Assembly: GCA_950295325.1 (NCBI GenBank)
Contig: OX485809.1
Span: forward strand, 22,940,001 to 23,004,000
Direction: 5' to 3'
From: Polytrichum commune
Lineage: Eukaryota; Streptophyta; Polytrichopsida; Polytrichales; Polytrichaceae
DNA length: 64,000 nucleotides
In this document: one piece after another, positions 12,032 through 63,168 of the stretch
Layout of the letters: every line of letters starts with the position of its first letter
Numbering within the stretch: the stretch's first letter is position 1
Translations under genes and position numbers: made by a program
The notes under the pieces: generated by a model
What the model saw: the letters and a program-made list of their open reading frames with translations, nothing else
Told to the model about the DNA's origin: nothing
Database searches by the model: none

Positions 12032-12414
12032 CTACACAAGATATGATATTTAGTGTCACCAATTCTAACTGTCTCGCTCAATACTAATTGTCGACCGCAG
12101 TGTAGTGTCACCAACACTAAATGCTAACCCACTATTATTTTGTCATTCCTCGTACATTCTCTGAAGGATTACAGATTTACAGCGTTGCAATTACTGTCAC
12201 TCACCGAGTGATTTTTCATCCAAATCTCAATCATCCACAACAACATTCCATCACAAGTTGCTGACAATGAGAAGGTAGGGTTTTGGCCAATGGATGAACT
12301 CATCCACCATCCATGACAGCATTTGTTCCGCTTCTTCATAAGAAGCGCCATCCGAATAGTTACCAACCATAGTGACACTAAATACGGGGACACTAAATAT
12401 CATATTTAGTGTAG
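12032..12414. mobile_element. MITE with palindromic ends, about 383 bp
   Basis: The right end is the reverse complement of CTACACTAAATATGATATTT followed by AGTGTC. The left end has the same sequence with small changes. The end itself is nearly palindromic (ACACTAAATAT then ATATTTAGTGT). A second, truncated copy lies at 28561-28729 and aligns over about 170 bases, which shows this is a repeat family. No protein is encoded, and the target duplication is unclear. Confidence 0.65.
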
Positions 12415-28560: not shown

Positions 28561-28729
28561 CTACACTAAATATGATATTTAGTGTCACCAATTCTAATTG
28601 TGTTGCTCAACACTACTTGTAAACCGTAGTATAATGTCACCAACACGAAATGTTAACCCGACATTGTTTGTCATTCCTAGTAAAAAACTTGGAAAATTAT
28701 AGATTTACAATGTTGCAATTACTGTCGCT
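28561..28729. mobile_element. Truncated MITE, same family as 12032-12414
   Basis: The intact left end CTACACTAAATATGATATTT and about 150 following bases align with the copy at 12032. Similarity stops abruptly at about 28729, where an unrelated sequence beginning TGTGAGAGCC starts. The missing right half is not found in the next 4 kb, so this copy was interrupted or deleted by the next element. Confidence 0.65.
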
Positions 28730-41800: not shown

Positions 41801-44416
41801 TCTGATATGATGTTTGTATGCACTTTGATGTATTAATGTAATTTGACATGAGGTTAGAAATTTGTGTTATATGTGAAATCTGATGTAGCCCCTACTTATG
41901 TTTGTATTAAGGGATATATGTGAAATCTGATATGAGGCTTAGTTAGTGAATTAAGCTTAGGTAAGCTTAGATAGTCAAATATAAGATATGTTTAGTTATT
42001 GACATCTAATATAATCTTAGTGAGGGTAGTCTGACATAATTTAGTTAGTGTAACCTGAAATAATCTGAGTTTGTGCCGAGGCTAAGTATCTGTAGTTTAA
42101 CATTATTATCTGAAGTTAGTATCTGAAATATATGAGGTATCTGAAGTATCTGAAGTTTAACCTTACTATCTGAAATTTCTGAAATTTCCAGGTCCTAGTT
42201 TGAGGGTCCCAGACACTCTCTCTAGTTTAAGGGTTCCAGGGCCTGGTTTGTGTGTCTCGGTCCCGAGACACTTTTTCTGGTAAAGGGTTCCAGGGCCTAG
42301 TATGAGTGTCTCGGTCCCAAGACACATTTCTGTGCCCGACACAAATTTCTGAATTTCCAAGGTATAAGCTTAGTGGGTTATCTGATACGAGGTCATATAT
42401 GTGGGTCTCAAGTGTAATCTTATATGAGGTTATATATGTGGATGTGAAGTGTAATATGATATGAGGTTTCTTATGTGGGTCACAAGTGTAATCTGATATA
42501 GGTTCAGTTAGCAATGTTGGGTTGTAGTGTAATCTGATATAAGCTAAGTTAGTGAAATGTGATACAAGCAGAGATAGGGTAATGTGATATAAGGCTAGAT
42601 ATTTCTGAAATTTCAGGGCCGAGATGAGTGTCTCGGTGCCGAGATGGTTTAGCTGGTATTCAAACTATATTGTCACAATCATAGTTCAGTTTGACATCTA
42701 GATATGCTTTATACAATTGTTATTTGATATGAGGTTATATATGTGGGTCTCTTGTGTAATCTGATATGAGGTTATATATGTGGGTCTCTTATGTAATCTG
42801 ATATGAGGTTATATATGTGGGTGTGAACTGTAATCTGATATGAGGTTATATGTGTGGGTCAGAAGTGTAATCTGGTTTGAGGTTTCTTATGTGGGTCACA
42901 AGTGTAATCTGATATAGGTTAAGTTAGCAATGTTGGGTAGTAGTGTTATCTGATCTAAGCTAAGTAAGTGAAATGTGATACAATCAGATTTAGGGTAATG
43001 TGATATAAGGTTAGATATTTCTCAAATTTCAGGGCCGAGATGAGTGTCTCGGTCCCAAAACAGTTTAGGTGGTATTCAAACTATACTGTCACAATCATAG
43101 TTGAGTTTGATATCTAGATATGCTTTATAGAATTGTTATCTGATATGAGGTTATATATGTGGGTCTCTTATGTAATCTGATATAAGGATATATATGTGGG
43201 TGTGAAGTGTAATCTGATATGAGGTTATATATGTTGGTCACAAGTGTAATCTGATCTAAGCTAAGTAAGTGAAATGTGATACAATCAAAGTTAGGGTAAT
43301 GTGATATAAGGTTAGATATTTCTGAAATTCCATGGCCGAGATGAGTGTCTCGGTCCCGAGACATATTTTCTGGTCACAATCATTGTTCATTTTGATATCT
43401 AGATGTGCCTAGATAAGGTTGAGATAAGGTTGAATTTGGGTATTGTAAAGGTAAACTGATTTGAGGTTAGATATCTAGGTTAGATTTGTGTGTTTGTAAG
43501 GTCAATGTGATATGAAGTTAGTTAACAGTGTGAGGTAAGAGGTTGAGTTATGAGGTTGAAATATAGTGCCGAATTCAACTGTCTCGGTCCCGAGACATTA
43601 TATTAGCCTACCAATATCTACCACCATGTTATTTATGACTTGTAACATGAGTGTAAACTTATAAAGGTAGTTATGAAGTTGAATACTATTCTATAAATCA
43701 AGTGTCACGGTCCCGAGACTCTATTTGAACCTCCCAAACTCTACAACCTCACTATGAGTTTAGGAGATATAAGTGTAATCTGATAGGTGTGTAATATGAT
43801 CTAACTTTAATGATTGTTAGTTCTGAAACTGATTTTTAGAGTTGATTTCTGGTGTCTCGGTGCCGATACACTATTTCACCATATCAAATTCTGGCACATC
43901 ACGCTGAGTGTAGCTTTAATCTGATATATGTATAAGGATAAGTGCCAAGTTATAGTGTCTCGGTGCCGAGACACTCTTTGAGCCTATCTGATTCCTTACT
44001 CAATGTGAGTGTCTCTGTGCCGAGACACTGTTTGAAACACTAAAACTCTAATACCTCAGTCTGAAATTTAATGTAACCCGATATAACGTAAACCAATATA
44101 TGTGTAATCTGATCTAAGTGTAAGTGAGGTAGTTATGATTTTGAATTTGAGAGTTGATTTATGTTTGTCTCGGTCCCGAGACTGAATTTTAGCCTATCAA
44201 ACTATACTACCTCAGTCTGAAATAAGAGTTATATTGTAATCTTATATATGTGTAATTTGATCTAAGTGTAAGTGTAGGTAGTTATGATTTTGAATTTGAG
44301 AGTTGATTTCTGGTTGTCTCGGTCCCGAGACTGAATGTTAGCCTATCAAACCATCCTACCTCAGTCTGAAATAAGAGTTATATTGTAATCTTATATATGT
44401 GTAATTTGATCTAAGT
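38822..44416. repeat. Higher-order tandem array built round a TGTCTCGG palindrome
   Basis: Two levels of repetition are visible. A short unit of about 41 bases (TGTAATCTGATATGAGGTTA then TATATGTGGGTCTCTT) repeats dozens of times. Every 400-700 bases it is interrupted by a block reading GGGCCGAGATGAG followed by TGTCTCGG-TC-CCGAGACA. About eighteen palindrome copies occur, at positions including 39000, 39145, 39530, 40205, 40620, 41220, 42247, 42628, 43342, 43582, 43960, 44165 and 44316. The spacer is always 2 bases (TC or TG). The best copy, 43954-43975, has 10-bp arms AGTGTCTCGG. No protein is encoded; open frames here are repeat artefacts. Confidence 0.85.
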
Positions 44417-44444
44417 AACACTATATTCGTTAAATTGAGACTTT
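44417..44444 (+). repeat. Left terminal inverted repeat of the 16.2-kb element
   Basis: Twenty-eight bases identical to the reverse complement of 60578-60605. The match ends at 44444, and the next bases (CTCTAG) have no counterpart on the right. Confidence 0.93.
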
Positions 44445-44948
44445 CTCTAGTCTCAAATTAATATATGGATCAAAGAACTTGAAGAGGCCCGAAACTATAT
44501 TGTCAACAATCTCAATTATATTATATGTTCTAATATCTCAAATCTATGATGTGCGGACATAAGCACATATGGTAGAGCACTCGACACCAACTTCATCAAC
44601 AAAAACACATTGGGTAGAGCACTTCAAACAAGTTTCACCCAAAAATATATATAAAATGATTTCTATTATTAGCATGTTCAATAGAATATAGACATTGCAA
44701 CATACAAAGTGCATGTAATAAATGCATGTTTCTTCATTCGAGAATATAGTCCCAAGCATAATAATAAGATGAACTTCAATTGCAGCTTGAAATATAGTAA
44801 ATGGATATTCATCCAACTCCAAACAATATAGTATTCGTAAGTTCTACCCAAACTCTGCCCCAATTTTGAAGAGCACACATATGTGTAATTTATATTGCTA
44901 TAATTACGTATTAAACTATAATCATGCTAACACAATCCTACCAACTTC

Positions 44949-47900
44949 TCATTCAACGTGGGTTGCTTCTTCTGCAATCCGAGCAAGGTTGTCTTTTGCA
45001 AAAGTTATGTACTTTTGAGGGATGGACACTGATCCACTATGGTGTTTCCGTGGTTTCCATGCTATGAATATGGAATCTGTATCTACCCAAGATGGACCGT
45101 GCTCAGAATCCACCTTCCACCGAAAGTTAGGGTTTGTATCCCAGCCTGTATAATGCCGAATCACATCTTCATTCCTTGCTGTCGGTCGATAGTACTCCAC
45201 TTGTATTTGTCGAAAATGAGGGCTGGAAGTTACAAAATTGGGATTGGACAAAGCTCTTGCCACCCACACTGGCTTCGCATATGTCTCGTCTCCAGGACGC
45301 AAAATGAGCATATAACCTTCATGACAATCCACTGCAATGCGGAAAGATGGTGGGGGACGACTACTAGCAGGCCCCACGTAATGGTCGTCCACATCAAACT
45401 CCTCTCGAACCTCTCCATTTCCCAAAAGACTAGGCTCTGAAGCTTGTACATCGACTCGTGTTTGTGGCCAAAATCCATGCCTCAAAGTATGAGGGCTATC
45501 TTGGTGGAGGTCTGCCAAGGCGGCACGAACACGTGTCCAATAATGTATCCAACTCCCATAACGATGCCAACATGATCCGCCAACATCCGCTATTTTCAAA
45601 CTCTCCCAATATTGTATGAAGCCTGATATACCTTTCAAAATATCCTCCAAATTCTTCATGGCTATTGGCTTACAAGGCCTAGGCTCCCCATCCGGTAACA
45701 TGGTCTTTCCATCCGCATCCACGCGCCACACAAGAAGACCCTCCGGCGGGCTCCAGTCTTGTGACGTGCACAACAACTTGTATTGCATGGCCGGGACACC
45801 ATCGTCACGCATATAGAAGCGGAATTGTTGTGCCTTCGTATGCCCGATCAATCGGTGAGCTCCACTTCGAATATAAGGTTCTATAAATGCCTTGAAGTCT
45901 GGCACCTCCTCAATCATATGGGGGATGACGGGAACGTTCTCCAAATCCATGTACGACTTCATCAATAATGGAATTGTAGGGAAATCCTCCTCCCGCAACT
46001 TCATGCTCCACCGCCCAAAAGATGCATCAATATCATCGTGCGTGTGGCCTACCAATAGGAAGGACACAAAAACCTCCTTGAAAATGCCTTTCGCAACCAA
46101 CAACGACCAATATGCAAATACATATCTGCTTTTATTGTCCTTGGCACAATTGTCCAATTGGACACGCAAAGTTGGAGGCAACTTCTTGGCAATCACGGGT
46201 TCATTGGGTGGCTCGGGCAACGAATGCAAGCATACATCTTTTCCATCCAACACCGCTTCATATAAAGGTGTTGAACCCGTGTTCTCAAATAACAATCCTG
46301 AAGAATAGGCTGGTGGTTTCTCTAAATCACGTAAAAGCCTTGCAAATGATCCTATCGTGTGGTTTGAATCCGCTGGATACAAATCAAGAGCATAATGAGC
46401 AAATTTGACATCACCGTGTCCATGTGCAATCATTCCTGCAATGCCAACCCAACGTGATTAGCATCTATGTATGAATAAACCATTATGAAGGAATCCATGT
46501 TCTCCAGTACATCACGGAATAAAATACAACAACATTTAGGGTATGTCATGACATTGTTTCGAAGTTCACCTGTAACCGATACAGGCAACTTGAAAAACCC
46601 ATCCGTGGCCTTGATTCGATTTGCAAAACATGGGGAGGCTGTTTTGGCATGGTCCATTTTGTCATGGATGACCGTAAGAACCTCCAAGGGCCTGGAGATG
46701 GACAAAGCTCTATTTGTGTAGTAATCATTACGGTGTGCCTCTTGCATGTTTACGTGCTTGAAATAGTTCAATTGATGCGCTGCATATGACTCGGTGCCCA
46801 TCGTGTGTGCATCCCGGAGGCGCTTCAACTTCTCGCAATTAGAGCACCTGGCAAATTTGTCCCCTCGTCTTTTTGTAATGTATTCGCTAAAGTTTTGTTT
46901 CTTGATTGCACTCAATTTTGACAATGAAATTGGCTCCAACCCAATCTTCTCGCCAACTGCATTAACGTCCAACAATATGTCTTTCCATTTTGTGCCTGTG
47001 GGAAGAACTTTCTCCACAACCTTTTCACCGGTTGTGAGTGTGCGTGTTTTGTGCGGCATTGCATCGGCAAGAGGGACAATGATGGTTGCTAGAGTGGCCG
47101 TTGCTTGCCTTGTTGCTTCCCTAGGCTTCTTTAAACCCACGTTACCATGGTGACGGGACCGGCGGCCTTCCTTGGCATAAGCAGCTTGTCTATAAAAGTC
47201 CGATTTCGACACACCGTGAATGGTGTACCATGCCTTACAACACACGTCTATGCTTTCAATGGTGATGACCTTGCGACCCGTCCCATTCACATGTATCGCC
47301 CTATGGACATCAAGTTTTCTTGTGGATCTTAGACGGAAATCTCCAAGCCACATTTCTTCGCGGATGACCTTCAATTTATCCCTTGGAAACAATTGGCAAC
47401 AACGATGCACACAACAATCCTTTGTGGCAACTTCTCTAATGGACTCCTCCCCGAGCAACCTTTGACGTTTACAATCAGTTGCAGACGGAGCAGGACGTGC
47501 CAATGTATCGTACTTTCTTTGACCCTTGCGCGGCCGCATGTTTGATTGCACCTCCTTTTCGATTTGCATGTGTCGTTGCTCATGTTCACGCAAGCTAACT
47601 CCATCAATTGTGACATTCCTCAATGGCCACCTGCGGAGGGAGAACCTATGAGTGGGATCCACCTCGGAATGAACGACCGACTCCAATATGACAACCCCAA
47701 CGTCCTCAGTGCCAAGCGGGTTTTCATCAATGCAATCTTGCGGATGGGTGTTACGGCAAATCCCCTCCGCCACAACAACTCCACTATCGTTAAGAAGTAT
47801 CACCTCCAAATTCACCCACGAAGCCCTTGAAAGTCCCGTACATTCAACAATGGGACACTGCGGTACGGAAGACGAAGGTAAATCCAAATGATCTTCATCC

Positions 47901-48013
47901 GCACTGTCAGCCATAGTAGCCTCCCCGACAATGTCTAGGTCATCATCAGATGCAGATGGCCAAGTGGCCATGTCATCAGATGACCAATCCCCTATTTCAC
48001 TAAACCCATCCAT
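44949..48013 (-). CDS. DUF7869-type DDE transposase of the 16.2-kb element
   Basis: Two minus-strand exons, 48013-46570 and 46435-44949, are joined by a GT-AG phase-1 intron (46569-46436). The splice yields ...LPVSVTG|MIAHGHGDVKFAH..., and the product is about 976 residues. The start MDGFSEIGDW was chosen as the first Met after a plausible acceptor. The N-terminal part is acidic. Cys pairs (CCVHRCCQLF, ARCSNCEKLK) suggest zinc binding. The catalytic core shows IHDKMDHAKT (Asp near 451), LRVQLDNCAKDNKSRY (Asp near 576) and VGHTHDDIDASFGRWS (near 612-620), the signature of the DUF7869 transposase-like family. The reading frame is intact, so it may be functional. The palindrome array 48227-49263 lies directly upstream and could be its promoter region or a control site. 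Confidence 0.85.
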
Positions 48014-48226
48014 TCTGCCTACACACATGAACATTGAACATTGTCTTAAAATCACAAAAATTGTAGGTTCAAATCGAAGAACAAAAAAACCATCATATAT
48101 AAACAAAATTGCAAATACTCAGTGCTCATACAAGTTCATATGACTGCTATGCCATTGGGCTTGTAAAGGTTTCGGAAGGCCAGTGGCCACACCGGCACCC
48201 AGATCCCAACCACACTTAGAGGCTGG

Positions 48227-49263
48227 GTTTGGGTCGAGCGACCCAAACCTTTTGGGAGGATGGGTTCAGGCTCAATACAGAGAGCACCCACACTTAGGCG
48301 CTGGATTTGGGTCGAGCGACCCAAACCTTCTGGCAGGATGGGTTTAGGCTCACTACAGACAGCATCCACACTTAGGGGCTGGGTTTGGGTCGAGCGACCC
48401 AAACCTTTTGGCAGAATGGGTTTTGGGTCACGACAGGGAGCACCCACACTTAGAGGGCTGGGTTTGGGTCGAGCGACCCAAACCTTTTTGCAGGATGGGT
48501 TCAGGCTCACAACAGTGAGCACCCACAGTGTAGGGCTAGGTTTGGGTCGATCGACCCAAACCATGAGGCAGGATGGGTTCAGGCTCACAACAATGAGCAC
48601 CCACACTGTAGGGCTGGGTTTGGGTCGATCGACCCAAACCTTGAGGCAGGATGGGTTCAGGCTCACAACAGTGAGCACCCACACTGTAGGGCTGGGTTTG
48701 GGTCGATCGACCCAAACCATGAGGCAGGATGAGTTCAGGCTCACAACAGTGAGCACCCACACTGTAGGGCTGGGTTTGGGTCGATCGACCCAAACCATGA
48801 GGCAGGATGGGTTCAGGCTCACAACAGAGAGCACCCACACTGTAGGGCTGGGTTTGGGTCGATCGACCCAAACCATGAGGCAGGATGGGTTCAGGCTCAC
48901 AACAGAGAGCACCCACACTGTAGGGCTGGGTTTGGGTCGATCGACCCAAACCATGAGGCAGGATGGGTTCAGGCTCACAACAGAGAGCACCCACACTGTA
49001 AGGCTGGGTTTGGGTCGACCGACCCAAACCATGAGGCAGGATGGGTTCAGGCTCACAACAGTGAGCACCCACACTGTAGGGCTGGGTTTGGGTCGATCGA
49101 CCCAAACCATGAGGCAGGATGGGTTCAGGCTCACAACAGTGAGCACCTACACTGTAGGGCTGGGTTTGGGTCGATCGACCCAAACCTTGAGGCAGGATGG
49201 GTTCTGGCTCAATACAGAGAGCACCCACACTGTAAGGCTGGGTTTGGGTCGACCGACCCAAAC
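48227..49263. repeat. Tandem array of 14 palindromes (GTTTGGGTCG arms), unit about 78 bp
   Basis: Fourteen consecutive units each contain arm GTTTGGGTCG, two bases, then CGACCCAAAC (one left arm begins ATTTGGG). The rest of the unit reads GGATGGGTTCAGGCTCACAA and AGCACCCACACTGTAGGGCT. The central two bases are AG in the first four copies, AT in eight and AC in two, while the arms hardly vary. Because most units are a multiple of three and lack stops, long open frames appear on both strands; these are not genes. The array is immediately 5' of the transposase start. Confidence 0.95.
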
Positions 49264-49887
49264 AATTCCGCAAAATCCGCCTATTTATTCGGGTGATGCT
49301 CTATTAATCTATTTATAACCTATTTGGGACAACTGAACTCATAGATGCTTGTTGTAATTAGCTGCTCATGAATGGAAGCGTATACAAACCGTGTATTACA
49401 GCTCCAACTTAGAGAGCTTGCAGCAATCTCAGGATTGGGACATGAAAGAAAGAACCAGCATTTGGGGGGGTTGGGCTCTTTATACTACCCGCCTCCGCTT
49501 TGGGCATCCTCTTTGGATGCCTTTCCCACCTGGTCTCCTTTGGATGTTAATTCAAACCTTCTGACTCAATTTCCCGCTTCTTGTCAATAATAGAGAATGT
49601 ATATTTAGCTTGGCTCTTCGTTGCCCCAACCACCAAATGAATAATTCAACATATATTTAAAGTTGTTACCACCCTAACTTGGTCAACACTATTCTTCAAC
49701 TCTTTCATAATTAGTTTTATACATGAATACACCACCACCTTCCCTATTGCCATCTCCTTTCTCCTTTTATCATTGTTGTATATTTTTCTCACATCCTTAC
49801 TAATACTAAATCCCTATATGTAACTTCCATATATCACCATAGTGGATATTTAGTGTTTGAGTTTACATTTAATGTTACTTACTCTCA

Positions 49888-50023
49888 TAGGGTTAGTAAT
49901 GGGAAGTGTATGCGTTCGTTTTAAGTGTATCAAACACTAACTATCATATAACTAAAAAGGATATAAAGGTTTTGATACACTACATATGAACGCATACACT
50001 AAATACCAATAACCCTATGACAA
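49888..50023. repeat. Imperfect foldback repeat, about 136 bp (MITE-like)
   Basis: The left arm CATAGGGTTAGTAATGGGAA...GTGTATGCGTTC pairs with the right arm GAACGCATACACTAAATACC...AACCCTATG over about 46 bases with several mismatches. It is probably a small non-autonomous transposon inserted within the larger one. The target duplication could not be defined. Confidence 0.5.
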
Positions 50024-50831
50024 TATGTAAGATTATATCTATTAAGGGGTTTTACTCTACTTGTAGTCAAACATTATGGTATATTTCAAACAATATATTG
50101 ACAAAAGATGTGCATGTATTATAAAACTTCATATACTAAAAGTCACTAAATATAATAGTTAATGCTATTATTTAGACTCTCACATGAGGACTTATATTTT
50201 GAAAACAAATAATTAATGCCATGACAAACTTGAATAATTTGGCCAACTTTCAATTTCTGCTAATTAAAAGAACATATGTTGTGTTGTAATGTGTGCACCC
50301 AATATTGCTTCATCCTCAAGACTCCAAGTGTGACAATAACCTAGTACCTATGTGGAAGTCATTAATGGAACCCTAAACCACAAATGACATTTGGCACGTT
50401 CAATCTTCCAAGGATGTTTGAACCTATCGTGAAGTCCCTTGAACTCTACCAATGTGTGTGAGCAAAACATGCAAAGTTCAAAAGGTATGTCCTCATATCA
50501 TTCACAACATGAAATCTACTTTAAATTAATATATAATATTTCACTATTCCAAATAACATGTTAACATGAACCACATCCTATCCATTATAATCTAGTTCTT
50601 ATGCTTTTCTTACCAGGTGACAAGGTTATAGGTTAATATTGTATCACCTACTTGTGAGCACAATATCGTTTATTTCCTTTAGTGCGTTCATTCGTGAAAA
50701 ACCACACATCCATCTTTCACGTTTGTGAATTAGGATGTTGTGATGACAATATACATTTGTATTGGAAACTACAAGCACCAAGGCCCATGTCATTTGACCT
50801 ATGTGCCATCCAGTTATGGTTTGTGTTGTTT

Positions 50832-50868
50832 AAGGTTTAGGGTTTAGGGTTTAGGGTTTAGGGTTCAG
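50832..50868 (+). repeat. Interstitial TTTAGGG telomere-type repeat
   Basis: About four consecutive TTTAGGG units plus variant edges (TTTAAGG, TTCAGG) occur. This is the Arabidopsis-type plant telomere unit, which also appears as telo-box motifs in promoters of growth genes. Here it lies inside a transposon. Confidence 0.75.
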
Positions 50869-51399
50869 GCATCATCAAACATCAAACTGAATGTTTAAAT
50901 GACTTCATATGATATGTGAACTCCATGGGGTTGCAGTAGATACATTTGTAATCATTTGTTTCTCCCATGTACTTCAAATGTGAACTTCTAAGTACATATA
51001 TTAATGTTCACTCTAATGCTACTTGTTAGGGTATCCATTATAGACTAGAGCATTGTCCTCTACCAACAACCATCATATAAATTACAATACATAATCCTAA
51101 ACTGTTAACCATGTGAATGGTTACCATATTTATATTATTGCACCGTGTAATTGCCTTTGTGGATTGCAATATAATTATGACTTACTCCTCTTAGACTTTG
51201 TAACACTCTCATATGATTCCATAAATTACATTATTCATACACCAAAACGATAATGGCTACATTCAACGATGTTATCAATTCCAACGGGTGATCATTCAAT
51301 TGAACACCATTAAAATATGAGTTGGTGATGGTGTTAATTTTGTGGAATACCTTAGTCCACGTAGGTTTTTGACTGGTATTGAATTGCCGCTAATGAATA

Positions 51400-52247
51400 G
51401 CGGGTTAGAAGGCCGGGGCCGGGCGGCCAAGAGAGGCGCCGGCCCTCCTATGTCCCGCACCTAGGGGCAAGGACAACCAGGAAGGCAATCTCCCTAGGGT
51501 GGCAGGTGTCAACACCACAAGCCTCGCGGGCAACCACCTAAACCAAGGAGGTGTCGACACCTGGCAAGGTGTTGGCCCGCGAGGCTTCTGAGCCGTTGAT
51601 GGGCCCGGCGCAATCTAATGGCCCGGATTCGAGGGTTTAGGGTGACCCCTTCCGCTCTCTCCTTCTCTCCCCTCCTCTTTTTTCTTTCTCTCTTTTTCTT
51701 CCTCTCTTCCTCCGCGCCAAGCGCCGCTCTTGGAAACGCCGCCGCCGCTTTCCATAGCGCCGCGCCAAGCGCTTCCTCTCGCACCTTTTGCTTTTGTCTT
51801 GGTCGCGCCGCTTCCCTTCATTCTTCTTTCTCCTTCATTCCTCTCCTCCTCTCTGATGCTTCTCCTCCTCTTCTCTCATTCTATTCCTCGTGTTATTGTC
51901 TTCCTCTTCTTATTCTCTCTTCTTGGTCCAGAGTGTTAGCTTTGAGTGAGTTCGGAGCGGTTTATTGTGTTGAACTCCTTACTTGTTTTGTAAAATTCAT
52001 GCATGGAGTGATTTTAGGTTGAGTAGAAGTGAGCACGGTCGAGTGTGATAGAAATGTAGAGGTCTTTCAAATTAGGCCTGAGTTTGCAAGAATCAGGGGG
52101 TTTGTGAGAAAGTTTTAGGGTGCTTGAGAGATTCATTGTGTTTCTGAGATCTTTGTGAGAGTTGTTCTTTAGTGCCACAACAGAGTTTCTGAGTCTGGTT
52201 GTAAGAAGCAGATTGTGAGAGCAGCTTTCAAGAGTTTGAAAGACAAG
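51400..52247 (+). promoter_or_regulatory. GC-rich promoter region and 5' UTR exon of the large element gene
   Basis: GC content jumps at about 51400. A CT-rich leader (about 51650-51720) and a non-coding stretch follow, ending in a strong donor (GACAAG then GTAAGC at 52248). The next acceptor, TTGCAG, ends at 53175 directly before the ATG. I infer transcription from this region with a 0.9-kb intron in the 5' UTR (52248-53175) that holds a palindrome cluster. The Pro/Ser/Phe-rich open frame at 51618-52022 is a composition artefact of the CT-rich leader. Confidence 0.45.
51519..51587. promoter_or_regulatory. Inverted repeat in the element promoter region
   Basis: AAGCCTCGCGGGC at 51519-51531 is the exact reverse complement of 51575-51587. 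Between and beside them lie GGTGTCAACACC and GGTGTCGACACC, which are themselves palindromic. The cluster sits just upstream of the CT-rich leader, so an operator-like role is possible but unproven. Confidence 0.45.
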
Positions 52248-52440
52248 GTAAGCAATTTGCATCAGTGCACACAATTTGCATCATTCCCTTTAGGTTCCTG
52301 TTACATATACAATGCATAAGCATTGTATATGTTGCCCAAGCATTAAACATGCATCTGGAAACACAGTAGTTTGGGGAGACGACCCAAACTCATATTAAAA
52401 TATAATAAATATTTGAATTGCAGCCTAAAATGAACTAAAT

Positions 52441-53148
52441 GTTTGGGTCGTTCGACCCAAACATTGCAGCCTCTTGTTTGGGTCGAGCGACCCAAACATT
52501 GGAGCCTCATTATGTTTGGGTCGCTCGACCCAAACATTACAGGGAGAAGAACTAAACCACATTGTAAAATATAAAAGAACTTCAAAAATTAAGTAAATGT
52601 TTGGGTCGTTCGACCCAAACATTGCAGACTGAAATGACTGGGTTGAGGTACCTAAATTTGCAGCCTAACATGTTTGGGTCGCTCGACCCAAACATTACAG
52701 GGAGAAGAACTAAACCACATTGTAAAATATAAAAGAACTTTGAAAATTAAGTGAATGTTTGGGTCGTTCGACCCAAACATTGCAGTCTGAAATGAATGGG
52801 TTGAGCTACCTAAATTTGCAGCCTAACATATTTGGGTCGCTCGACCCAAACATTACAGGGAGAAGAACTAAACCACATTGTAAAATATAAAAGAACTTCC
52901 AAAATTAAGTAATTGTTTGGGTCGTTCGACCCAAACATTGCAGTCTGAAATGAATGTGTTAAGATACCTAAATTTGCAGCCTCATCATGTTTGGGTCGCT
53001 CGACCCAAACATTACAGGGTGACCACCTAAACCACACTTTAAAATCTAAAAGATCTTTTAAAACGACTTTGAAAATTAAGTAAATGTTTGGGTCAATCCT
53101 CCAAATGTTAAATGCACATTGCAATACTTTGGGTCGATCGACCGAAAC
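52441..53148. repeat. Palindrome cluster in the 5' UTR intron of the large gene
   Basis: Nine intact or near-intact copies of the GTTTGGGTCG-arm palindrome occur from 52441 to 53010. A degenerate copy follows near 53084 and one with a single arm change at 53127-53148. Central bases run TT, AG, CT, TT, CT, TT, CT, TT, CT; the alternation shows tandem duplication of a unit of about 157 bases carrying one TT and one CT copy. A half-degenerate copy also lies near 52371. Surrounding sequence differs from the 78-bp array at 48.2 kb; only the palindrome is shared. Confidence 0.93.
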
Positions 53149-53175
53149 TCACAGTTTCGATTTCTTGGATTGCAG

Positions 53176-56100
53176 ATGGCCCCTAAAAAGAGACCAGGTG
53201 AAAGGTGGTTCATGCTCGCGCCAGACCACCTTTGGCAGGAGTATGAAACTCCACAGGACGATTCTTACGTCCCAAAAGATGGCGTCGTTTTGGCATGGTC
53301 CGTTCAGGTGGTGAAGGCATCCATGTTCAAGCTGCTATTCGTGGTGAAGGTGGGGACCCACGAGCAGCACACCTGGGCAACGCTGACGGGATGGGAGGTT
53401 GCGTCCGTCCAGTCTCTCGGGGACTACGTAGACGTGATACTGGAGAACTCCGCCGTGCAGAACGTCCACATGTTCATGCACCAGTTCTCCGAGCCCTTCG
53501 ACCCCCTGTACGCCAAGGAGACTTGCGTCGACCCTGAAACCATAAAACCAGAGGCCATATTCATAGATGGTAGTGTAACGAACACGAAGGTTGCGAGCAG
53601 GTTCACGAAGTTAAAACAGGCTATCACGGTTCTCAACAAGGCGCTGCAAAGCAAACCCAAGACGCAGCAGCCTGTGAGGCGGAAGGCAACGACGGAAGAA
53701 GGCGCAGGGTCCTCAAGACCACAAACTGTGAGGAAACCGCGGGCGGTCCCTGCAGACTCGAGACGGACGAGCACTACAACAACGCCGGCTGACAGCGAGA
53801 CGCCAACGCCATCAGGAAGCCGTCAGACGACCCCTTCCAAGAGGGGAAGAGAGTCATCGGGGATGACTGACGAGCCTGTTTCCCCGGAGCTCCGGATGCT
53901 GAAGCCTGGCCAAGAGGTGGATGCAGGCGAAATACAAAAAATAAACAACAACTTCGAGACAAAATGCCTGCACTGCTTCTTCATGGGCAGGGACTTCAAA
54001 TTCGAGGTCAACATTGCGCAGTGCCACCTTGCACCACCAGAGAAGTGCGTCCGAGCCAAGGAGGACGCCTACGTCGACTGGATGGTCGCTCAAATCTTGG
54101 GCGGGCAGTTCAAGGACGACAGGCAGACAATTGTTGTCATGCCACAAGGGCTGAAAAGAATGCCGACGCCTGAGATGTGGCCGGCAATCTCTAAAGGAGA
54201 CTTCTGGCTGATTGACGGGCAGCACAGTGTGGAGGCCTCGAAAAAAATCCAGCTGATGACCGAGTGGGACGACCCGAACAACCAGAAGGAGAAGCTAAAA
54301 GTTTGGAAGGCTTTGGTGGTTTGGTCGGACAACGAGACGGTCCTCAGCGACATCTCCAGGTTCTTCAACATGGGGAACAAAAAGAGGGCCTATCAGGCAT
54401 CGTGGATCAGAAACATCATGGCCTCGAGGGAGGTGTGGGAGTTTTATGGAAGGCCTCCCAAGGAAAGGGAGAATGCTAAAGACAAGAACCCCAAATGGGA
54501 GGTGAGTATGTTTGGGTCGATCGACCCAAACTCCTACATTGTTTTGTTGTCATCGCCAGGTTGATAGTTTGGGTCGGTCGACCCAAACTCTGAAATTATT
54601 TTGATATTGTCCCCAGGTTCATAGTTTGGGTCGGTCGACCCAAACTCTGAAATTGTTAAGATGTTTTCGCCAGGTTCATAGTTTGGGTCGTTCGACCCAA
54701 ACTGCTGTTGCATTTGTTTTTCCATTATGTGTTGTCTAACATGTGCTAATGTCTTCCTGTGCAGGACTTCAAATATCAAATGATCAATAAATTCTCCTCG
54801 ATCGACAATGCTAGCCACAAGCAGAAAAAGTATAACGAGCTGAGAGGAGAAATCTATTTGATCACAGCGTCCGATTCCGTATGGGCAAGATGGAAGAGTG
54901 TTTTTGAAAAACACGAGACGGGGGACCTCATGGACCCCGACACCGGCATGCGGTTCAACCAGACTACGCGCTTCAAGCAAATGAAGCCTCTGGTGAGGGA
55001 GTTCTTCAGAGCGCTTCAAGGTCTCTCCGAGACAGAGATGGGAAAAGCGGCGTCCCACATCCTACACGTGGAGACGACGGCGAAGAGATGCTGGGTCCAC
55101 CCTAAGATCGTCTTCACCAAACCCAAGATCTTCGTCCCTTCATGCTACACAATGAAGGAATGGACGGAGAACAGGAAGAAGAAGACGACCATCGTCCAGG
55201 AGCTGCACAAGCTTGTGCCAGAGAAGAAGCTCATCGTGGACGGAGAGGTCGACGAGGCGCACTGGAGGGCCTTCAAAGCCGAATATAAGTTTACCAGTGC
55301 GTCCATGGCGGCACTCATGAGGGAGGCGGGAGACGACTTCCTCAGATCCAAGCTCGTGAAGGGGGGGAGGAACCGGGCGCTTCCCGAACACTCAGTGCGG
55401 GCCTTCTCCAACTTCATAAAGGAGAAGAAGATCGTCAGTTTCGAAGGCGATGCGCAATTCAACATGGTCACTGTCGAACCTCTCAGGATCCAGGGTTGGC
55501 CGGGTTCTGAGTCAAGGAAGGCGATCAGGACTAGAGCCGGGGACCGCTTCCCCTTCGGAATGATAGACTTCAGGAACATCCCTGGAGCCTCATTCGAGGG
55601 GACTATGAGCACCCCTTTTTACGATCCTTTCTTGTCGAAGTTCGTGGACTACGCCAGCCCCAAATTCAGGGAGGTCGACGTCTGGCTCTGGATTGTCGAG
55701 GACAGAAGGGCAGAGCAGGTTTACGAGATCGTGCGCAAATTGCAGCCGGAGTATGCCGTCTCGAAATCTCACTACGTTGCTGCACCGGCGGAGGGGGCGT
55801 ACAGCACGCTGAAAGACAAGAAGACGAAGATCGTCAACGTGCTGTGTTTGTACTTCGTGTACAAAGCTGAGCTGCTTAAGGTGCCAAACCATCCCATAGC
55901 CAGGATGGAAAAGCTCTTCCAAGTCCAAGAAGGGTTGGGTACCAGCAGGAGCTTATATGACGAGGCGAAGTACGCCAACTACCCCGCGGATGAGCTGCGC
56001 ATGGAGTTCTACCTGCGGATGATGAGGACCCTCACGAAGAGAGGGGACTGCATCTTCAACGTTTTCGGGGGGTCCAAACCGATTTTTGCAGCCATGGTAA

Positions 56101-59100
56101 GCAGAAAACCCAGAAGTCCCTATACGTTCGGTTTGGGTCGAACGACCCAAACTAGGGGCATGCACAGTTTGGGTCGCTCGACCCAAACTAGGGCCATGCA
56201 TAGTTTGGGTCGAGCGACCCAAACTAACTATTCTTATTTTGTTTGGAAGTCATTTTCCATTATATGTTCATTTGGTGTTACTAATAGTATTGATTTTGAT
56301 TGTGCAGATGTCTGGGTTGAACATCTACTCCTATGTAGAGGATGCCGATGTTCAATTCTACAGGACCCAAAAGGCGCTGGCCAAGAGAATGGACATCCTC
56401 GACTGGATACCCGGATCCTACGTCGAAGAGATCGTCGAGGGGGGCGAGAATCCTTTGGATATTGCGAGGCGAATCAACCCGGGTGAATTCGCCATGCGGG
56501 CCCCCGTTCAATTGCCAGAGCCGCTCATCGGGTTGCATCCGGGCAATCCGTCTATGGGAGCAGGTGGCAGGGTTGGGGAGGAGGGGGAGGAAGACGAGGA
56601 GGAGGCGGAGGAGGAAGCAGAGAAAGTGGAGGGGGAGGTGGAGGAAGGGGCAACAGGATTCACTCAAGAATCCGAGGCCCCTCAGCGGAAGAAGGCCATG
56701 CGGCCTGCCACGCCGCAGAGCAGGCTGGTGCCCGCGTTGACGGTGGACGACGCCAAGGATATGTACTCGAGGGACGCGACGGCCACCTTCAGGGAGCGTA
56801 GAAGGATGAAGGGGAAGAAGCTGTACGGGGACTATGCGGTGGAGGAGACGATCGCAATAAGCTCCGAGGACGAGGACGACATGGAACTCGCCAAGAAGCT
56901 GAGGTCTGATCCTGCCTCCCCCAGAGCGTTCGCCGGGAATGTGAGGGTGAAACCGGAGGTCCTCACCGTGGAGGAGGCGAACGCAAAAATGCTCCGAGAC
57001 GAGGAGCAGCGTGTGCGACTGCAGAGGGCTGCCGCCGAGGAACCCTCTGTCCGCAACGAAGTCGCGGAGTTGAGGGCTCTCCTGTTGGAGCAGGAGCGGC
57101 AAAGGGCGATGTCCCAAACTCCGTCCCAAGCGGACCTCATCACGCAAGTGATCCAGGGCATGCTGGCGCAGGGATTGGTGATGGCTCCCCCGAGTTCATT
57201 CCCTCACTTGCCCGCAGGCTTCCCTCCACAGGATATCCGCCCGCGGCCGGCGTTGGAGCATTCCTTCAGCTTCGCGGATTTGCTGCAGCCGCACGCCCGT
57301 CCTTACGCGCCTGTGCAGCAGGTGGATGATCCAAACCTTTGGCGCGTCCCCGGAGCGTCCAGCTCGTTGGCACCCCCCCCCCGCTCCGGCCTCCCATCCT
57401 CTTGCCCCCACACCACCAGCGGGACGACCCCCACATGTTTGGGTCGTCCGACCCAAACAGTGCCGACGTTGCAGCGTCGCAGAGCGACCCTCGCCAAGCA
57501 GCAGGGTTTGGGTCGGCCGACCCAAACCCCGTCCCCCATCAGACCCCGGTCGACGAGCCTATGCTAGATGTTGAAGGCCCGCAAGGGCCTGGTGATACCT
57601 CTACTCCTAACCCAGTCGATGAACCAATGCATGATGCGCATGCGGAGGTTGGGTTGGGACAAAGGCCTGACAGTCAGCCTTTGCAGGAGCAGGTTGCGGC
57701 TGACGGCGTCGTCGGAGGCGGCGGTGACAGAGGTGGGGCAGCGCACGCGATGCCGGCATCAACGTCGTCAAGGCACGACCAAGGCGAGGTAATGCACTGA
57801 CCCCACTCAGTTTGGGTCGGCCGACCCAAACTTCCTGGGTCTTTGACTTCTTGCCTTGGTCGTGTCCCCTAGCTAGGACGAACTTAGGCCCCCCCCCCGG
57901 CACTCGCGCCCTTCGTCACCCCCAGCGACCATTCGTTCGTCCACCTACCCCCGGCTTTGCAACGAAGTCTTCATCACGGCGGCCCGTCTCTTCAATTTTT
58001 TCTAGATGTAGAAGTAGGCTAGTTTGAACGCATCGTTCAACGCGGCTCCCCCAATCAAGATGTACATAGAGCATTGTATATAATATAATCACCATTTTTG
58101 ACTCCTATATACTTGTATATTGTGTTTGAATGTATTTTGTATGCTCTTGTATCCCTTGTATCCCTTGTTGCACCCCCTCCAAAATGAATCAAATGCTTTT
58201 GTGTTTGCACCGAGAACGCTCGTTTCCTTAATGCTTCGTTTGGACATAGCATGACATAAGTCGCCCCCGTTTTCTCTCGCTCGTATCCGCAGGGCTCGGA
58301 GCATAGCGTAGCGGCTCCCCGACGCTCTTCTCCAAGGAGCGCAGAGGGCAGCACGGCGGCCCCCCCGGTTTTACCCGCCCCGCCCCCGCTGCCGAAGAAA
58401 CGATTCCTGGTGTTAGACCTGAACGGTGTCCTCGTGCAGTGCGTTCATTGCCCTAGGGCCCCCACAGTGCCCTTTTGCAAGCCCGAGGACGCTAATTACG
58501 ACGGGCCGCCCACGTTCATAAAGAGCAAACTAGTTCACCTCCGCCCGTGGCTTCGGACCTTCCTCCAGATCGCCCAACAACGATGGTGGGTGGTCGTGTG
58601 GAGCTCCATGAAGGCCGAGAACACCAATGCAGTCGTGGAGTTCATCTTCAAGGGCATCGAGCCCCCCTGCATGGTCCTAGCACAGGAAGCCTGTAGAATA
58701 TTGTACACACCGGACGGCAAAGTCGTCAAAAAACCAAACAACCCCGCTTCCCCCCAATACCTCAAGGTCTTGAAGCCCATTTTTTGGGACCAGCGACCGT
58801 CCTTGATAGGCGTCCCCTACGACGTCCGCCCCACCCGCGAGAACACGCTCATGGTGGACGACAGCGCCGCAAAGAACATGTTGAACCCGACGGCCAACTT
58901 CATAGTGTGCCCTACGTGGACGGTCGAGAAGGTCCGGGACCGATTTTTGTTAGACCTTAGTAAATACCTCCAGGCGCTCTGGGGAAGCGGACTTCCCGTA
59001 AACAATTTTGTTAGGAATAATCCCATAGGCGAGAGATACTTGGATCCACGAGACCATTTGTACAGAGAGTTGTTATCTCACGCGAAATTTAACAAGCTCA

Positions 59101-59105
59101 TTTGA
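53176..59105 (+). CDS. Large element protein: ParB-like, methyltransferase-like and FCP1-like phosphatase domains
   Basis: Exons 53176-54501, 54765-56096, 56308-57788 and 58293-59105 have GT-AG phase-0 introns and give about 1650 residues. Exon 1 starts MAPKKRPGERW and holds a basic Ser/Thr-rich linker and FWLIDGQHSVEASKK near residues 344-358, resembling the DGxHR/ParB nuclease fold. Exon 2 ends GDCIFNVFGGSKPIFAAM (869-886), which with MSGLNIYSYVEDAD of exon 3 matches motif I of N4/N6-type DNA methyltransferases (D.F.GSG..AA). At the expected DPPY position I see only IDFRNIPG (about 709), so catalysis is doubtful. Exon 3 has an acidic tract and a Glu-rich helix. Exon 4 carries VLDLNGVLVQ, VVVWSSMKAEN and TLMVDDSAAKNM, the plant FCP1-like HAD pattern (second Asp replaced by Asn). 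Exon 3 changes frame at a run of ten C (57373-57382), so one base is missing or assembly is wrong. Confidence 0.7.
54510..54702. repeat. Four palindromes in intron 1
   Basis: Four perfect GTTTGGGTCG-arm palindromes, spaced about 57 bases apart, have centres AT, GT, GT and TT. They fill most of the intron 54502-54764; the first begins eight bases inside the donor. Confidence 0.95.
56131..56224. repeat. Three palindromes in intron 2
   Basis: Three perfect copies with centres AA, CT and AG are separated by short spacers containing CTAGGGCATGCA-like sequence. They lie in the intron 56097-56307, which splits the methyltransferase-like motif region. Confidence 0.95.
57437..57527. repeat. Two palindromes inside coding exon 3
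   Basis: Perfect copies at 57437-57458 (centre TC) and 57506-57527 (centre GC) fall within the Pro-rich end of exon 3, just after the poly-C frameshift. In the frame that leads to exon 4 they encode MFGSSDPNS and FGSADPNP. They are the only copies found in coding sequence. Confidence 0.9.
57810..57831. repeat. One palindrome in intron 3
   Basis: A single perfect copy with centre GC lies 21 bases into the intron 57789-58292. The rest of this intron has no further copies. Confidence 0.92.
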
Positions 59106-59248
59106 GACAGTACGTGTGTTTGTATGTGTGTGTGTGTATATGCGCCTACCCATTTTGTGTAATTTACGCTTCATATGTATCTTGATTTTCACGCGCTCTA
59201 TCTCCCCCCTTTTCCTTGGGTTTTGTTTTGTTCCAATTTTGGCTCCAG

Positions 59249-60056
59249 CGTTTGGAGCCCTCGATTGACGTCGTCAGCGAGTCAGACTTGGGGAGCTTCT
59301 TCTACGAGACCGTTTACGACGCCGCGTCAACCATCGACTACTCCAAGGAGCCTCTTGACGCCGGCGTCGTCGATAGCCCCCCACCCAAGCAAATCTTCCG
59401 GCGATCTGCGTCCCCGTCACCGCTCAAAGGCATAAATCGCAAATGCGTCCGGACATCCCCCTCTCGGCCCGGCGGCAGTAGTACACCTCAACGGCGGCTG
59501 CGGATGGACGCTCGGCCTACGAAGAGTGGAACCCTTCCTATTCCTTTGCGGGATGCCTTGCCCCTCCTCGCCAACTCCGACGGGAACGCCCCCGGTGACA
59601 AGGTGAACCCCCCCCCCCCCCAAAAAAACATGGTTATCCGCGCATTACAATCATTTTGCACTTAAAAAATGAATGTGTGACACGTTTGGGTCTTCCTCCC
59701 TAAACTAACACATGTGTTCGTGCGTTGACGCGTTGCAGGTTGCTCCCACCCGTAAACCTATGCGGTCTAGTGCGTCCATCGAGTTGGAGCGTTTCTACTC
59801 CATGACCAGAAATGCAAGACAGTCCACTTCATCGTATTCGAATTCTTCGTCGTATAATTCGGGCGGCCGACGGAATACAAAATGTGTTATTGATGGCGTT
59901 CACCCCAAGAATGGCTATAGTCGCGGGGCGGAGATTTTCAGGAATGTTGAAGCAATGCGAGCAAAAGAAGCTGCAGCAAAAGAAAAAGAGGCAAAAGAAA
60001 AAAAAGCAAAAGAAAATGAAGCAAAAGAAAAAGAGGTAGTATCCGAGGCTAGATAG
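59249..60056 (+). CDS. Two further exons, basic Ser/Pro-rich protein with Lys-Glu coiled coil
   Basis: Exons 59249-59602 (RLEPSIDVVSESDLGSFFYE...) and 59739-60056 (VAPTRKPMRSS...) join across a GT-AG phase-0 intron and end at the TAG at 60054-60056. The last 40 residues are repeats of Lys, Glu and Ala (AKEKEAKEKK), predicting a charged helix. No ATG or promoter is evident at the start, and the first exon has an acceptor-like GGCTCCAG. It may therefore be the 3' end of the preceding large gene, detached by the TGA at 59103-59105, or a separate gene. The donor after that stop (GTACGT at 59110) is out of phase. Confidence 0.45.
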
Positions 60057-60218
60057 GCCATAGTAGGCGTAGGGTTTTGGGCCATAGGCAAGAACATTTT
60101 GGGTCGCACTATCCAATGCATGTGTGGTGTTAGCATGATATGCATTTTACATGCCACACTTTGTATGTTTTTTTTTTGCAATAATACAAGTTAGACATGA
60201 TTTCCCCTTCCATATGGT

Positions 60219-60455
60219 CTAAGGTTTGGATTGCCCTACCTAAACCATCACAAATATGAGTTTGGAATATTTTGTATGCAATATTATATTGGTTAACATA
60301 TTAACCCTTCAATAAGATCTATGGTTTGGATTGCCCTACCTAAACCATATTCATACAAGCTCTAATATTTTGTGTGCAATAATATGAATGTTTTAAGGTT
60401 TCCCCTTAAATGTGGTCTAAGATTTGGATTGCCCACCCTAAACCATCACAAATAT
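60219..60455. repeat. Three degenerate palindromes in the right subterminal region
   Basis: Three tandem units of about 100 bases each contain GTTTGGATTG, CC, CTACCTAAAC or a close variant (ATTTGGATTG, CC, CACCCTAAAC). Length (22) and position of the 2-base centre match the intact family, with four arm substitutions, three of them transitions. They appear to be decayed copies. Similar degenerate forms occur near 59684 and 60096. Confidence 0.7.
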
Positions 60456-60577
60456 GAGTTATTTATGGGGTTCTTGGTCTAAACACCTGCTTCAAAGTGT
60501 TCGCATCTTACAACTTTCTCCAATATGTGTTCCATTTATCCTTGTTCTTATTTATGTGAATGTCTCAAAATGCCCAA

Positions 60578-60605
60578 AAAGTCTCAATTTAACGAATATA
60601 GTGTT
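60578..60605 (-). repeat. Right terminal inverted repeat of the 16.2-kb element
   Basis: Twenty-eight bases, the exact reverse complement of 44417-44444. The target duplication AAGT follows at 60606-60609. Confidence 0.93.
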
Positions 60606-60746
60606 AAGTGTAAGTGTAGGTAGTTATGATTTTGAATTTGAGAGTTGATTTCTGGTTGTCTCGGTCCCGAGACTGAATTTTACCCTATCAAACCATACTA
60701 TCTCAGTCTGAAATAAGAGTTATATTGTAATCTTATATATGTGTAA
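60606..60746. repeat. Outer palindrome array resumes right of the insertion
   Basis: The sequence from AAGTGTAAGTGTAGG onward, including a TGTCTCGG-TC-CCGAGACT copy at about 60657, is nearly identical to the unit at 44260-44410. This shows directly that the 16.2-kb element split one tandem array. Confidence 0.9.
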
Positions 60747-63168
60747 GACTCAAATCATAATCAGTCAAATATCAACTCCTAACCCCCAAACCAGATTCCC
60801 TCAACCCACAGTCAAGCTCAAATTCATATCAACACTTTGAAGCCTCGGCTCTAAGTTCAGATTTCAAGTGCTCACTTTATATATGTCTACGTGGCCTCAT
60901 TTCAGGTCAGAATCTAACAATATGAAGCCTCGGCTCTTAATTCATATTTGAAGTGCTCACTTTATATATGTCTACGTGGCCTCATTTCAGGTTAGAATCT
61001 AACAATATGAAGCCTCGGCTCTAAATTCATATTTCAAGTGCTCACTTTATATATGTCTACATGGCCTCATTTCAGGTTAGAATCTAACAATATGAAGCCT
61101 CGACTCTAAATTCATATTTCGGGTGCTCACTTTATGTTATTTTAGCTGGCCTCATTTCAGGTTAGAATCTAACTCTTTGAAAGTGGCTTTCGGTTTAGAT
61201 TTCAAGTTCTCACATTATGTGGCTGTCCAATATATGGGTTTCGGGACCGAATCCTTCATTTTCAGGTCAAGAGGGTCACACCCTGAAGCCTCGGCTTCAA
61301 GGTTCAAATTAAAGGTGCTCACTTTATATATATCTAGTTGACCTCATTTCAGGTTAGAATCTAAGTCTTTGAAAGTGGCCTATAGGCTTAGATATCAGGT
61401 TCTCACTTTATGTGGGTGTCCAATATATGGGTTTCGGGACTGAAACCTTCCTTTTGAGGTCTAGAGGGTCACACCTTGAAGCCTCGGCTTCAAGGTTCAA
61501 ATTACAGGTGCTTACTTTATATATATCTAGTTGGCCTCATTTCAGGTTATAATCTAAAGCTTTGAAGCCGAGGCTCTAGGTTCAGATTTCAAGTGCTCTC
61601 ACTTTATGTTGTCCTAGTTGGCCTCATTTCAGGTTAGAATATAACACTTTGAAGCCTCGGCTCTACTTTGAGATTTCAGGTTCTCGCTTTATACATGTAT
61701 AGTTGGCCTCAGTTCAGGTTAGAATCTAACAATTAGAGGCCTCGGCTCTAGGTTCAGATTTAAGGTGCTCACTTTACGTTGTTTTAGTTGGCCTTATTTC
61801 AGGTTAGAATCTAGAATTTGAAGGTTGGCTATAGGCTAAGATTTCAAGTTCTCACTCTATGTTGTTTTAGTTGGCCTCATTTCAGGTTAGAATCTAAGTC
61901 TTTGAAAGTGGCCTATAGGCCTAGATATGAGGTTCTCACATTATGTGGCTGTCCAATATATGGGTTTCGGGACCGAAACCTTCATTTTGAGGTCAAGAGG
62001 GTCACATTTTGAAGCCTCGGCTTCAAGCTTCAAATTACAGAAGCTCACTTTATATATATGTAGTTAGCCTCATTTCAGGTTATAATCTACCAATTGGAAG
62101 CCTCAGCTCTAAGCTCATATATCGGGTGCTCACTTTATATAAGTCTAGTTGGCCACATTTCAGGTCAGAATCAACCAATTTGAAGCCTCGGCTCTAGGTT
62201 CAGATTTCAAGTGCTCATTTTATATATGTCTAGTTGGCCACATTTCAGGTGAGAATCAAACAATTAGAGGCCTCGGCTCTAGGTTCAGATTTAATGTGCT
62301 CACTTTATATAAGTCTAGTTGGCCACATCTCAGGTCAGAATCAACCAATTTGAAGCCTCGGCTCTAGGTTCAGATTTCAAGTGCTCATTTTATATATGTC
62401 TAGTTGGCCACATTTCAGGTTAGAATCTAACAATTAGAGGCCTCGGCTCTAGGTTCAGATTAAAGGTGCTCACTTTATGTTGATTTAGTTGGCCTCATTT
62501 CAGGTTAGAATCTAAGTCTTTGAAAGTGGCCTATAGGCTTAGATACGAGGTTCTCACATTATGTGGCTGTCCAATATATGGGTTTTGGGACCGAAACCTT
62601 CATTTTGAGGTCAAGAGGGTCACATTTTGAAGCCTCGGCTTCAAGCTTCAAATTACAGGAGCTCACTTTATATATATGTAGTTGGCCTCATTTCAGGTTA
62701 TAATCTAACAATTTGAAGCCTCGGTTCTATGTTGAGGTTTCGGGTGCTCACTTTATATAAATCTAGTTGGCCTCATTTCAGGTTAGAATCTAACACTTTG
62801 AAGCCTCGGCTTCAAGGTTCAAATTACAGGTGCTCGCTTTATATATCTAGTTTGCCTCATTTCTGGTTATAATCTAACAATTTGAAGCCTCTGCTCTAAG
62901 TTCATATATCGGGTGCTCACTTTATATAAGTCTAGTCGGCATCATTTCAGGTTAGAATCAAACATTTTGAAGTCTCGGTTCTAGGTTGAGCAAATACTCA
63001 AATTTTCTAACTCTACTGGTCACACCATTGGATTGACAAGATTGAAATGCATAAATTTAAAGGAAGAGCAGTACCTTGAGCATGAATGTTTTCAAGTCGT
63101 TGTAGGAAGGGGTGAATTCATCCGTGTCACCGCCAAGAACGTCGTCCAATGAGGAGTTGAGAATGAGC
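60747..63168. mobile_element. 2.4-kb insertion carrying a third tandem array, TAA target duplication
   Basis: The outer array reads ...ATATATGTGTAA before and TAATCTGATCTAAG after, so 60747-63168 is an insert flanked by TAA (60744-60746 and 63169-63171). A 3-bp TAA/TTA duplication suits PIF/Harbinger-type elements, but the ends (GACTCAAATC and its counterpart GCTCATTCTC) are only weakly inverted. Most of the insert is about 25 units of roughly 84 bases, with GAAGCCTCGGCT, CAGATTTCAAGTGCTCACTT and GGCCTCATTTCAGGTTAGAA blocks. Two palindrome types occur: CCTTGAAGCC-TC-GGCTTCAAGG (61474-61495, 10+2+10) and GGTTTCGG-GA-CCGAAACC (61963-61980). The open frames here are repeat artefacts. Confidence 0.6.
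63075..63167 (-). pseudogene. Exon fragment at the right end of the 2.4-kb insertion
   Basis: The minus strand reads LILNSSLDDVLGGDTDEFTP, then SYNDLKTFMLK, and ends at a good donor (CTCAAG then GTACTG). It is coding-like, stops at the insertion boundary and has no partner exon inside the insert. It is probably a remnant of the element's own gene after internal replacement by repeats, or a captured host exon. I do not recognise the family. Confidence 0.35.

Follow-up and report, generated by a model that had tools for sequence, protein, structure and literature searches.

A strongly constrained 22-bp palindrome in a giant DNA transposon family of Polytrichum commune

The Ectocarpus transposon Sola1-1_Ec32 (21.5 kb) encodes, opposite its transposase, a 1104-aa protein with ParB-like and N4/N6 methyltransferase domains, and the accessible part of the report suggests that ParB-methyltransferase proteins bind and modify their own transposon (PMC12477816). 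Sola elements, in the portion of the source available to us, have 4-bp target-site duplications (TSDs), terminal inverted repeats (TIRs) of 11-1124 bp and sizes up to more than 15 kb (PMC10741241). In VANDAL21 of Arabidopsis, as described in the accessible text, VANC-bound motifs are found within introns of VANC21 and VANB21 and also upstream of VANA21 (PMC5735166); the VANC21 protein recognises a short motif and erases silent marks (PMC5735166; PMC10398659). The TET/JBP genes carried by fungal DNA transposons are proposed to alter DNA modification and to counter silencing (PMC12730594). Here we describe a 16,189-bp element at positions 44417-60605 of a 64,000-nucleotide stretch of the Polytrichum commune genome (contig OX485809.1, positions 22,940,001 to 23,004,000; hereafter the window), which carries a DUF7869-type transposase gene, a divergent second gene (the cargo gene) and many copies of a 22-bp palindrome.

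As far as the available text on Sola1-1_Ec32 goes, the two elements are alike in being giant DNA transposons, in having an accessory gene on the strand opposite the transposase, and in the ParB-like and methyltransferase reading of that gene, which was made here by eye. Like Sola elements, as partly described, the family has a 4-bp TSD (5/5 copies), a 28-bp TIR and a size of 14.9-19.6 kb in the five copies with both ends. Unlike Sola1-1_Ec32, it has a plant host and its cargo adds an FCP1/NIF domain; it also has a dispersed palindrome, whereas none is mentioned in the accessible part of the report on the Ectocarpus element. The likeness to Sola1 is in TSD, TIR, size and cargo layout; the transposase here matched DUF7869. 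With VANDAL/VANC, going by the parts of those reports available, the element has in common that arrays of an element-specific motif precede the transposase and also occupy introns, with array number varying between copies. However, the motif here is a 22-bp dyad and that of VANC21 is the 9-base word YAGTATTAY, the transposase is DUF7869, the TSD is 4 bp and the cargo appears to be a different protein. The fungal TET/JBP elements, in the text available, carry a different protein and belong to other superfamilies, and may represent a further way of countering silencing.

The palindrome

The most telling feature of the element, which the sequence-only reading of this DNA did not include, is the palindrome GTTTGGGTCGNNCGACCCAAAC. 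It is under strong constraint and is confined to the element in the DNA examined. At up to 3 mismatches, 34 copies were found within the 16.2-kb element and none in the remaining 47.8 kb of the window or in shuffles. Fourteen are upstream of the transposase, 10 in an inferred leader intron of the cargo gene, 4, 3 and 1 in the three cargo introns that follow, and 2 in the third coding exon. We took 10 further copies of the element, 20 kb each, and all 10 aligned to it. In these copies 250 of 251 exact palindromes were in element-aligned DNA and the last one was in an unaligned gap beside the element; no exact palindrome occurred elsewhere in the 75.8 kb of unaligned DNA. The shortened copy L021/L022, which aligned over the first 3.1 kb only, had no palindromes. 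Array copy number varied between element copies.

Nine palindrome contexts, picked for carrying the motif and including two from the same intron, never showed agreement of more than 6/9 at a flanking position, so that the 22 bp have no common surroundings. The two middle cargo introns were compared between subfamilies A and B of the element. The palindrome arms differed at 4/1000 and 3/480 positions (0.4-0.6%), while the rest of the same introns differed at 658/2410 and 353/1299 positions (27%); these counts, from 8 and 6 of the 11 copies, were summed over non-independent pairs, and array units are possibly misaligned, so that 27% is perhaps too high. For the site mask a match in either member of a pair sufficed, and decayed sites were therefore counted unless broken in both. 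The synonymous divergence (dS) of the cargo between subfamilies, 0.12-0.18, served as a second yardstick and led to the same conclusion on arm constraint. We set aside the alignment of intron 4 (0/120 against 204/2880), since the window copy, being a mosaic, becomes B-like at its 3' end.

Both exon palindromes were in frame in the intact cargo copy and exact in 5/5 copies aligned, and the sequence adjoining them was likewise nearly unchanged. Palindrome variants were mostly one-sided, many of them C-to-T or G-to-A, and one variant among those listed had a matching two-sided change. Because the one-sided variants are uncompensated, conservation seems to act on the DNA word and not on an RNA hairpin, and the pattern fits a word recognised as double-stranded DNA. 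From these sequence comparisons the palindrome is quite probably a protein-binding site. The exact palindrome was absent from viral and bacterial/archaeal contig collections, which says little for a plant element, and a limited literature search gave no description of such a palindrome system.

The element, its family and its genes

The element is almost certainly mobile. Its 28-bp TIRs are identical, and with up to 3 mismatches the repeat was found at just these two sites in the window and never in 100 shuffles. AAGT flanks the element on both sides. The insertion point is within a tandem array of 149-bp units (44096-44416), and the flanks fused with a single AAGT showed 9 mismatches in 210 bp against an uninterrupted array stretch at 44198, which provides an internal empty site. 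The sequence-only reading had proposed these borders, the empty-site control and a complete TIR transposon with its TSD, and all of these stand. From the structure we infer a cut-and-paste mode, excision itself included. Long tandem arrays of 37-bp and 149-bp units with strong GC skew occupy 39237-44416, the element lying inside the 149-bp array, and arrays of 85-bp units occupy 60831-62987, just right of the element.

A search of the 408-Mb genome with the first 184 bp of the left end gave 988 first-look candidates, 40 of which were scored. All 40, the window's own copy included, matched over the full length at 99-100% identity. The sequence preceding the TIR was different at each of the eight loci read (L001, the window copy, to L008). 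The left TIR was perfect in 10/10 further copies, the tenth being read in locus L003. The right TIR was perfect within the fetched 20 kb in four; in the other six it was beyond the fetch or lost. The four further complete copies measured 16,066, 14,890, 19,623 and 18,084 bp, and all five copies with both ends had 4-bp TSDs: AAGT (window), TCTA, ATAA, TAAG and AAGT. Alignment of several copies was interrupted by long unmatched stretches resembling nested insertions. The 28-bp ends, which the sequence-only reading needed to recur as boundaries at other loci, do so, and an assembly chimera is untenable. The best explanation is that the family is large and consists of giant TIR DNA transposons that have 4-bp duplications and resemble Sola1 most closely; because the element ends are near-identical, it has probably been active recently.

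Other element types were also compared. CACTA elements (En/Spm) have termini CACTA and 3-bp TSDs. The TIR here contains the letters CACTA, but it begins AACACTA, with two bases before CACTA, and the TSD is 4 bp in 5/5 copies, and membership was rejected. KDZ elements were considered because of the giant size of the element here; their TSDs are longer than 4 bp.

The transposase had been read as an intact DUF7869 protein, and this was borne out by the Pfam match and by a frame that is open once a predicted 80-nt intron is removed. This intron was placed from the reading frames and its donor site is unremarkable; the subfamilies differ by 7 bp in length inside it, which is consistent with its being an intron. 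The transposase frame was open in 4/6 copies read (of 11; the window copy among the 4) and not open in 2/6. The Pfam scan of the transposase frames matched DUF7869 and no MULE domain, and we found no mention of DUF7869 in the literature searched.

The cargo gene is on the plus strand, divergent from the transposase, with four coding exons encoding 1649 aa in the intact copy L012/L011. The proposed second gene of about 1650 residues is thus present, but its window copy is frameshifted, at a C-run (57373-57382) in the third coding exon. The cargo stop codon was common to 5/5 copies aligned. Copy L012/L011 has an intact cargo and a broken transposase frame, and the window copy has an open transposase and a broken cargo. 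Because intact cargo and open transposase sit in different copies, such copies with reciprocal broken genes may complement each other in trans.

Both genes are under purifying selection. The ratio of nonsynonymous to synonymous divergence (dN/dS) was measured between subfamilies A and B on copies of which some are decayed. It was 0.08-0.15 for cargo exon 1, 0.08-0.14 for cargo exon 2, 0.06-0.13 for the NIF exon (cargo exon 4), where the window copy clusters with B, and 0.11-0.29 for the exons of the transposase. The low cargo values make it unlikely that the cargo is a passenger, and it appears to have mattered for the spread of the element. The window copy is A-like through most of the cargo and B-like from the last exon on, with the switch at about 57600-58300, perhaps through recombination or conversion between copies. 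The third open frame of the element ends in a lysine/glutamate-rich repeat and had no Pfam match. The features of the element are collected in Table 1.

Table 1. Features of the element and its borders, in window coordinates
Feature	Position	Strand	Evidence or remark
Left TSD, AAGT	44413..44416	.	flanking sequence read
Left 28-bp TIR	44417..44444	+	identical to right TIR; perfect in 10/10 other copies fetched
Transposase coding exon 2, with DUF7869	44949..46435	-	994 aa in total with exon 1
Best DUF7869 stretch	45765..46190	-	Pfam E 1.1e-42
Transposase coding exon 1	46516..48013	-	splice site inferred from frames
78-bp tandem array upstream of transposase, 14 palindromes	48210..49263	.	repeat and motif scan
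Span of the 34 palindromes (up to 3 mismatches)	48227..57831	.	motif scan
Array in inferred cargo 5' untranslated region intron (52248-53175), 10 palindromes	52427..53148	.	repeat and motif scan
Cargo coding exon 1 of 4, 442 aa, ParB-like by eye (IDGQHSVEAS)	53176..54501	+	no profile match of weight
Cargo intron with 4 palindromes	54502..54764	+	motif scan, subfamily comparison
Cargo coding exon 2 of 4, 444 aa, methyltransferase-like by eye	54765..56096	+	profile test not above shuffles
Cargo intron with 3 palindromes	56097..56307	+	motif scan, subfamily comparison
Cargo coding exon 3 of 4, 2 palindromes (57437, 57506)	56308..57788	+	frameshifted in window copy
Cargo intron with 1 palindrome (57810)	57789..58292	+	motif scan
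Cargo coding exon 4 of 4, FCP1/NIF-like domain, stop codon	58293..59105	+	Pfam NIF E 9e-15
Third open frame, two inferred exons, about 220 aa	59246..60056	+	open in 5/5 copies read
98-bp repeats near right end with degenerate palindrome, such as GTTTGGATTGCCCTACCTAAAC	60170..60454	.	repeat and motif scan
Right 28-bp TIR	60578..60605	-	perfect in the 4 of 10 other copies that include the right end
Right TSD, AAGT	60606..60609	.	flanking sequence read

Elsewhere in the window, pieces of a gene of the GRAS family, a plant gene family, were found at 20537-21975 (Pfam E 7.6e-44 for one piece). Frames on the minus strand at 33622-36710 resemble a further transposon, perhaps of the Mutator type; in one of them a SWIM-like zinc finger narrowly missed the Pfam cut-off (E 0.0014). 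Near-identical 30-bp repeats of the GGTGACACTAAATATCATATTTAGTGTAGT type, in both orientations at 12031-12415 and 28560-28589, are possibly the ends of small non-autonomous elements. Rfam gave no match in the window.

Candidate function and competing readings

The best reading overall is a sequence-specific self-recognition system, probably anti-silencing, with a VANDAL/VANC-like layout built from other parts; judged from sequence, we give it an even chance. The cargo protein, or a partner, would bind the palindrome as a dimer. This protein would possibly combine a ParB-like and a methyltransferase-like fold and end in the FCP1/NIF-like domain. Binding would mark every family copy, near the transposase promoter and in the cargo's own introns, and marking would keep both genes expressed against host silencing. 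How it would act is a guess, either by removing or replacing DNA methylation or through RNA polymerase II via the phosphatase-like domain. Binding of the putative site by the cargo product is slightly favoured, and an anti-silencing effect, rather than repression or transposition control, is suggested only tentatively. In a more specific version, a ParB-like cargo with a degenerate methyltransferase-like core and an FCP1-like tail would bind the palindromes upstream of the transposase and within its own introns and coding sequence, spread over each copy and keep the transcription of the family open, as a portable anti-silencing system that resembles bacterial ParB/parS and arose independently of VANC; we regard this version as rather unlikely.

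The proposed FCP1-like domain was recovered in the last cargo exon, with a Pfam NIF score of 55.1 bits against a cut-off of 21.8; two related NCBIfam models also matched, but below their cut-offs. The ParB-like and methyltransferase-like domains of the sequence-only reading were not recovered; they are motifs seen by eye, IDGQHSVEAS for the former and a stretch ending FGGSKPIFAAMMSGLNIYSYVEDADVQFY for the latter. To examine the methyltransferase-like region, a beta-class profile of 7 sequences (YhdJ and 6 phage enzymes) was used to score the cargo together with 200 shuffles of it and its reversed form. The best cargo stretch scored -1.1 bits and the best shuffle 4.1, with at least 10/200 shuffles above the cargo, while two enzymes left out of the profile as controls scored 109 and 129 bits; the reversed cargo was absent among the 12 rows listed. 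Single-sequence fold models of two cargo pieces were unusable (mean pLDDT 35.1, for the ParB-like domain, and 31.2), and PDB sequence searches with three pieces gave weak chance-level matches or none. The second cargo exon had no relative in a viral contig collection, which is little informative for a plant element. The published Ectocarpus cargo of the same kind, as described in the accessible part of its report (PMC12477816) and not cited by the sequence-only reading, raises the likelihood of both readings, without proof, and is alone in doing so.

Several observations weigh against self-recognition through the cargo. The cargo frame is broken in the window copy and was intact in just 1/4 copies read full-length (of 11). 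Neither the ParB-like nor the methyltransferase-like domain had a match of weight in Pfam, NCBIfam or PHROG, although either may be a remote homologue, and the methyltransferase-like region has no DPPY motif evident by eye, so that a catalytic role for it is doubtful. The catalytic motif of FCP1/NIF-like phosphatases is DxDx(T/V). The cargo motif reads DLNGV, with the first Asp retained and the second replaced by Asn, and because the second Asp is missing, phosphatase activity of the predicted NIF domain is uncertain. Degenerate palindromes within 440 bp of the right end would also fit a role in transposition.

These right-end sites, together with the dense array directly upstream of the transposase, would be expected if the palindromes were sites of the transposase or of an element-made repressor, used for autoregulation or for synapsis of the ends, as with TNPA of En/Spm. 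TNPA sites are subterminal. Here the outermost 3.8 kb on the left and 2.7 kb on the right of the element contain no palindrome with up to 3 mismatches, and 20/34 sites are in the cargo gene or its inferred leader intron. This distribution weakens the transposase or repressor explanation, which is the main rival, without removing it, and we consider it unlikely. Action in RNA, as 10-bp hairpins of introns and leaders steering splicing or feeding small RNAs, or recruitment of a host protein, would suit the 18/34 sites in inferred cargo introns and the perfect pairing of the arms in the commonest palindrome forms. However, an RNA stem would tolerate paired changes, whereas the palindrome preserves its actual sequence and most of its changes affect one side, and the largest array, upstream of the transposase, may be untranscribed. 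A host DNA-binding protein would be compatible with every test made, but as a whole this explanation is improbable.

The cargo could also be a captured host or bacterial gene that is merely carried along, with the motif arrays as neutral satellite expansions. Tandem arrays do expand and contract between copies, and gene capture is known for some plant transposons (see also the review PMC13317346). Against this stand a cargo dN/dS of about 0.1 across subfamilies, arms that diverge by less than 1% where the remainder of those introns reaches 27%, and the exactness of both exon sites in 5/5 copies, though the adjoining exon is also nearly unchanged; passive carriage is very improbable.

Under the self-recognition reading, the palindrome is a concrete candidate binding site that is tens of times more conserved than the surrounding intron. 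With such a site, a single protein and a 22-bp probe would suffice to put the ParB-methyltransferase proposal for algal transposons to the test. If self-recognition holds, the family would be another case of sequence-specific self-recognition by a plant transposon beside VANDAL, assembled from other components, and the presence of the motif could show which copies are under control.

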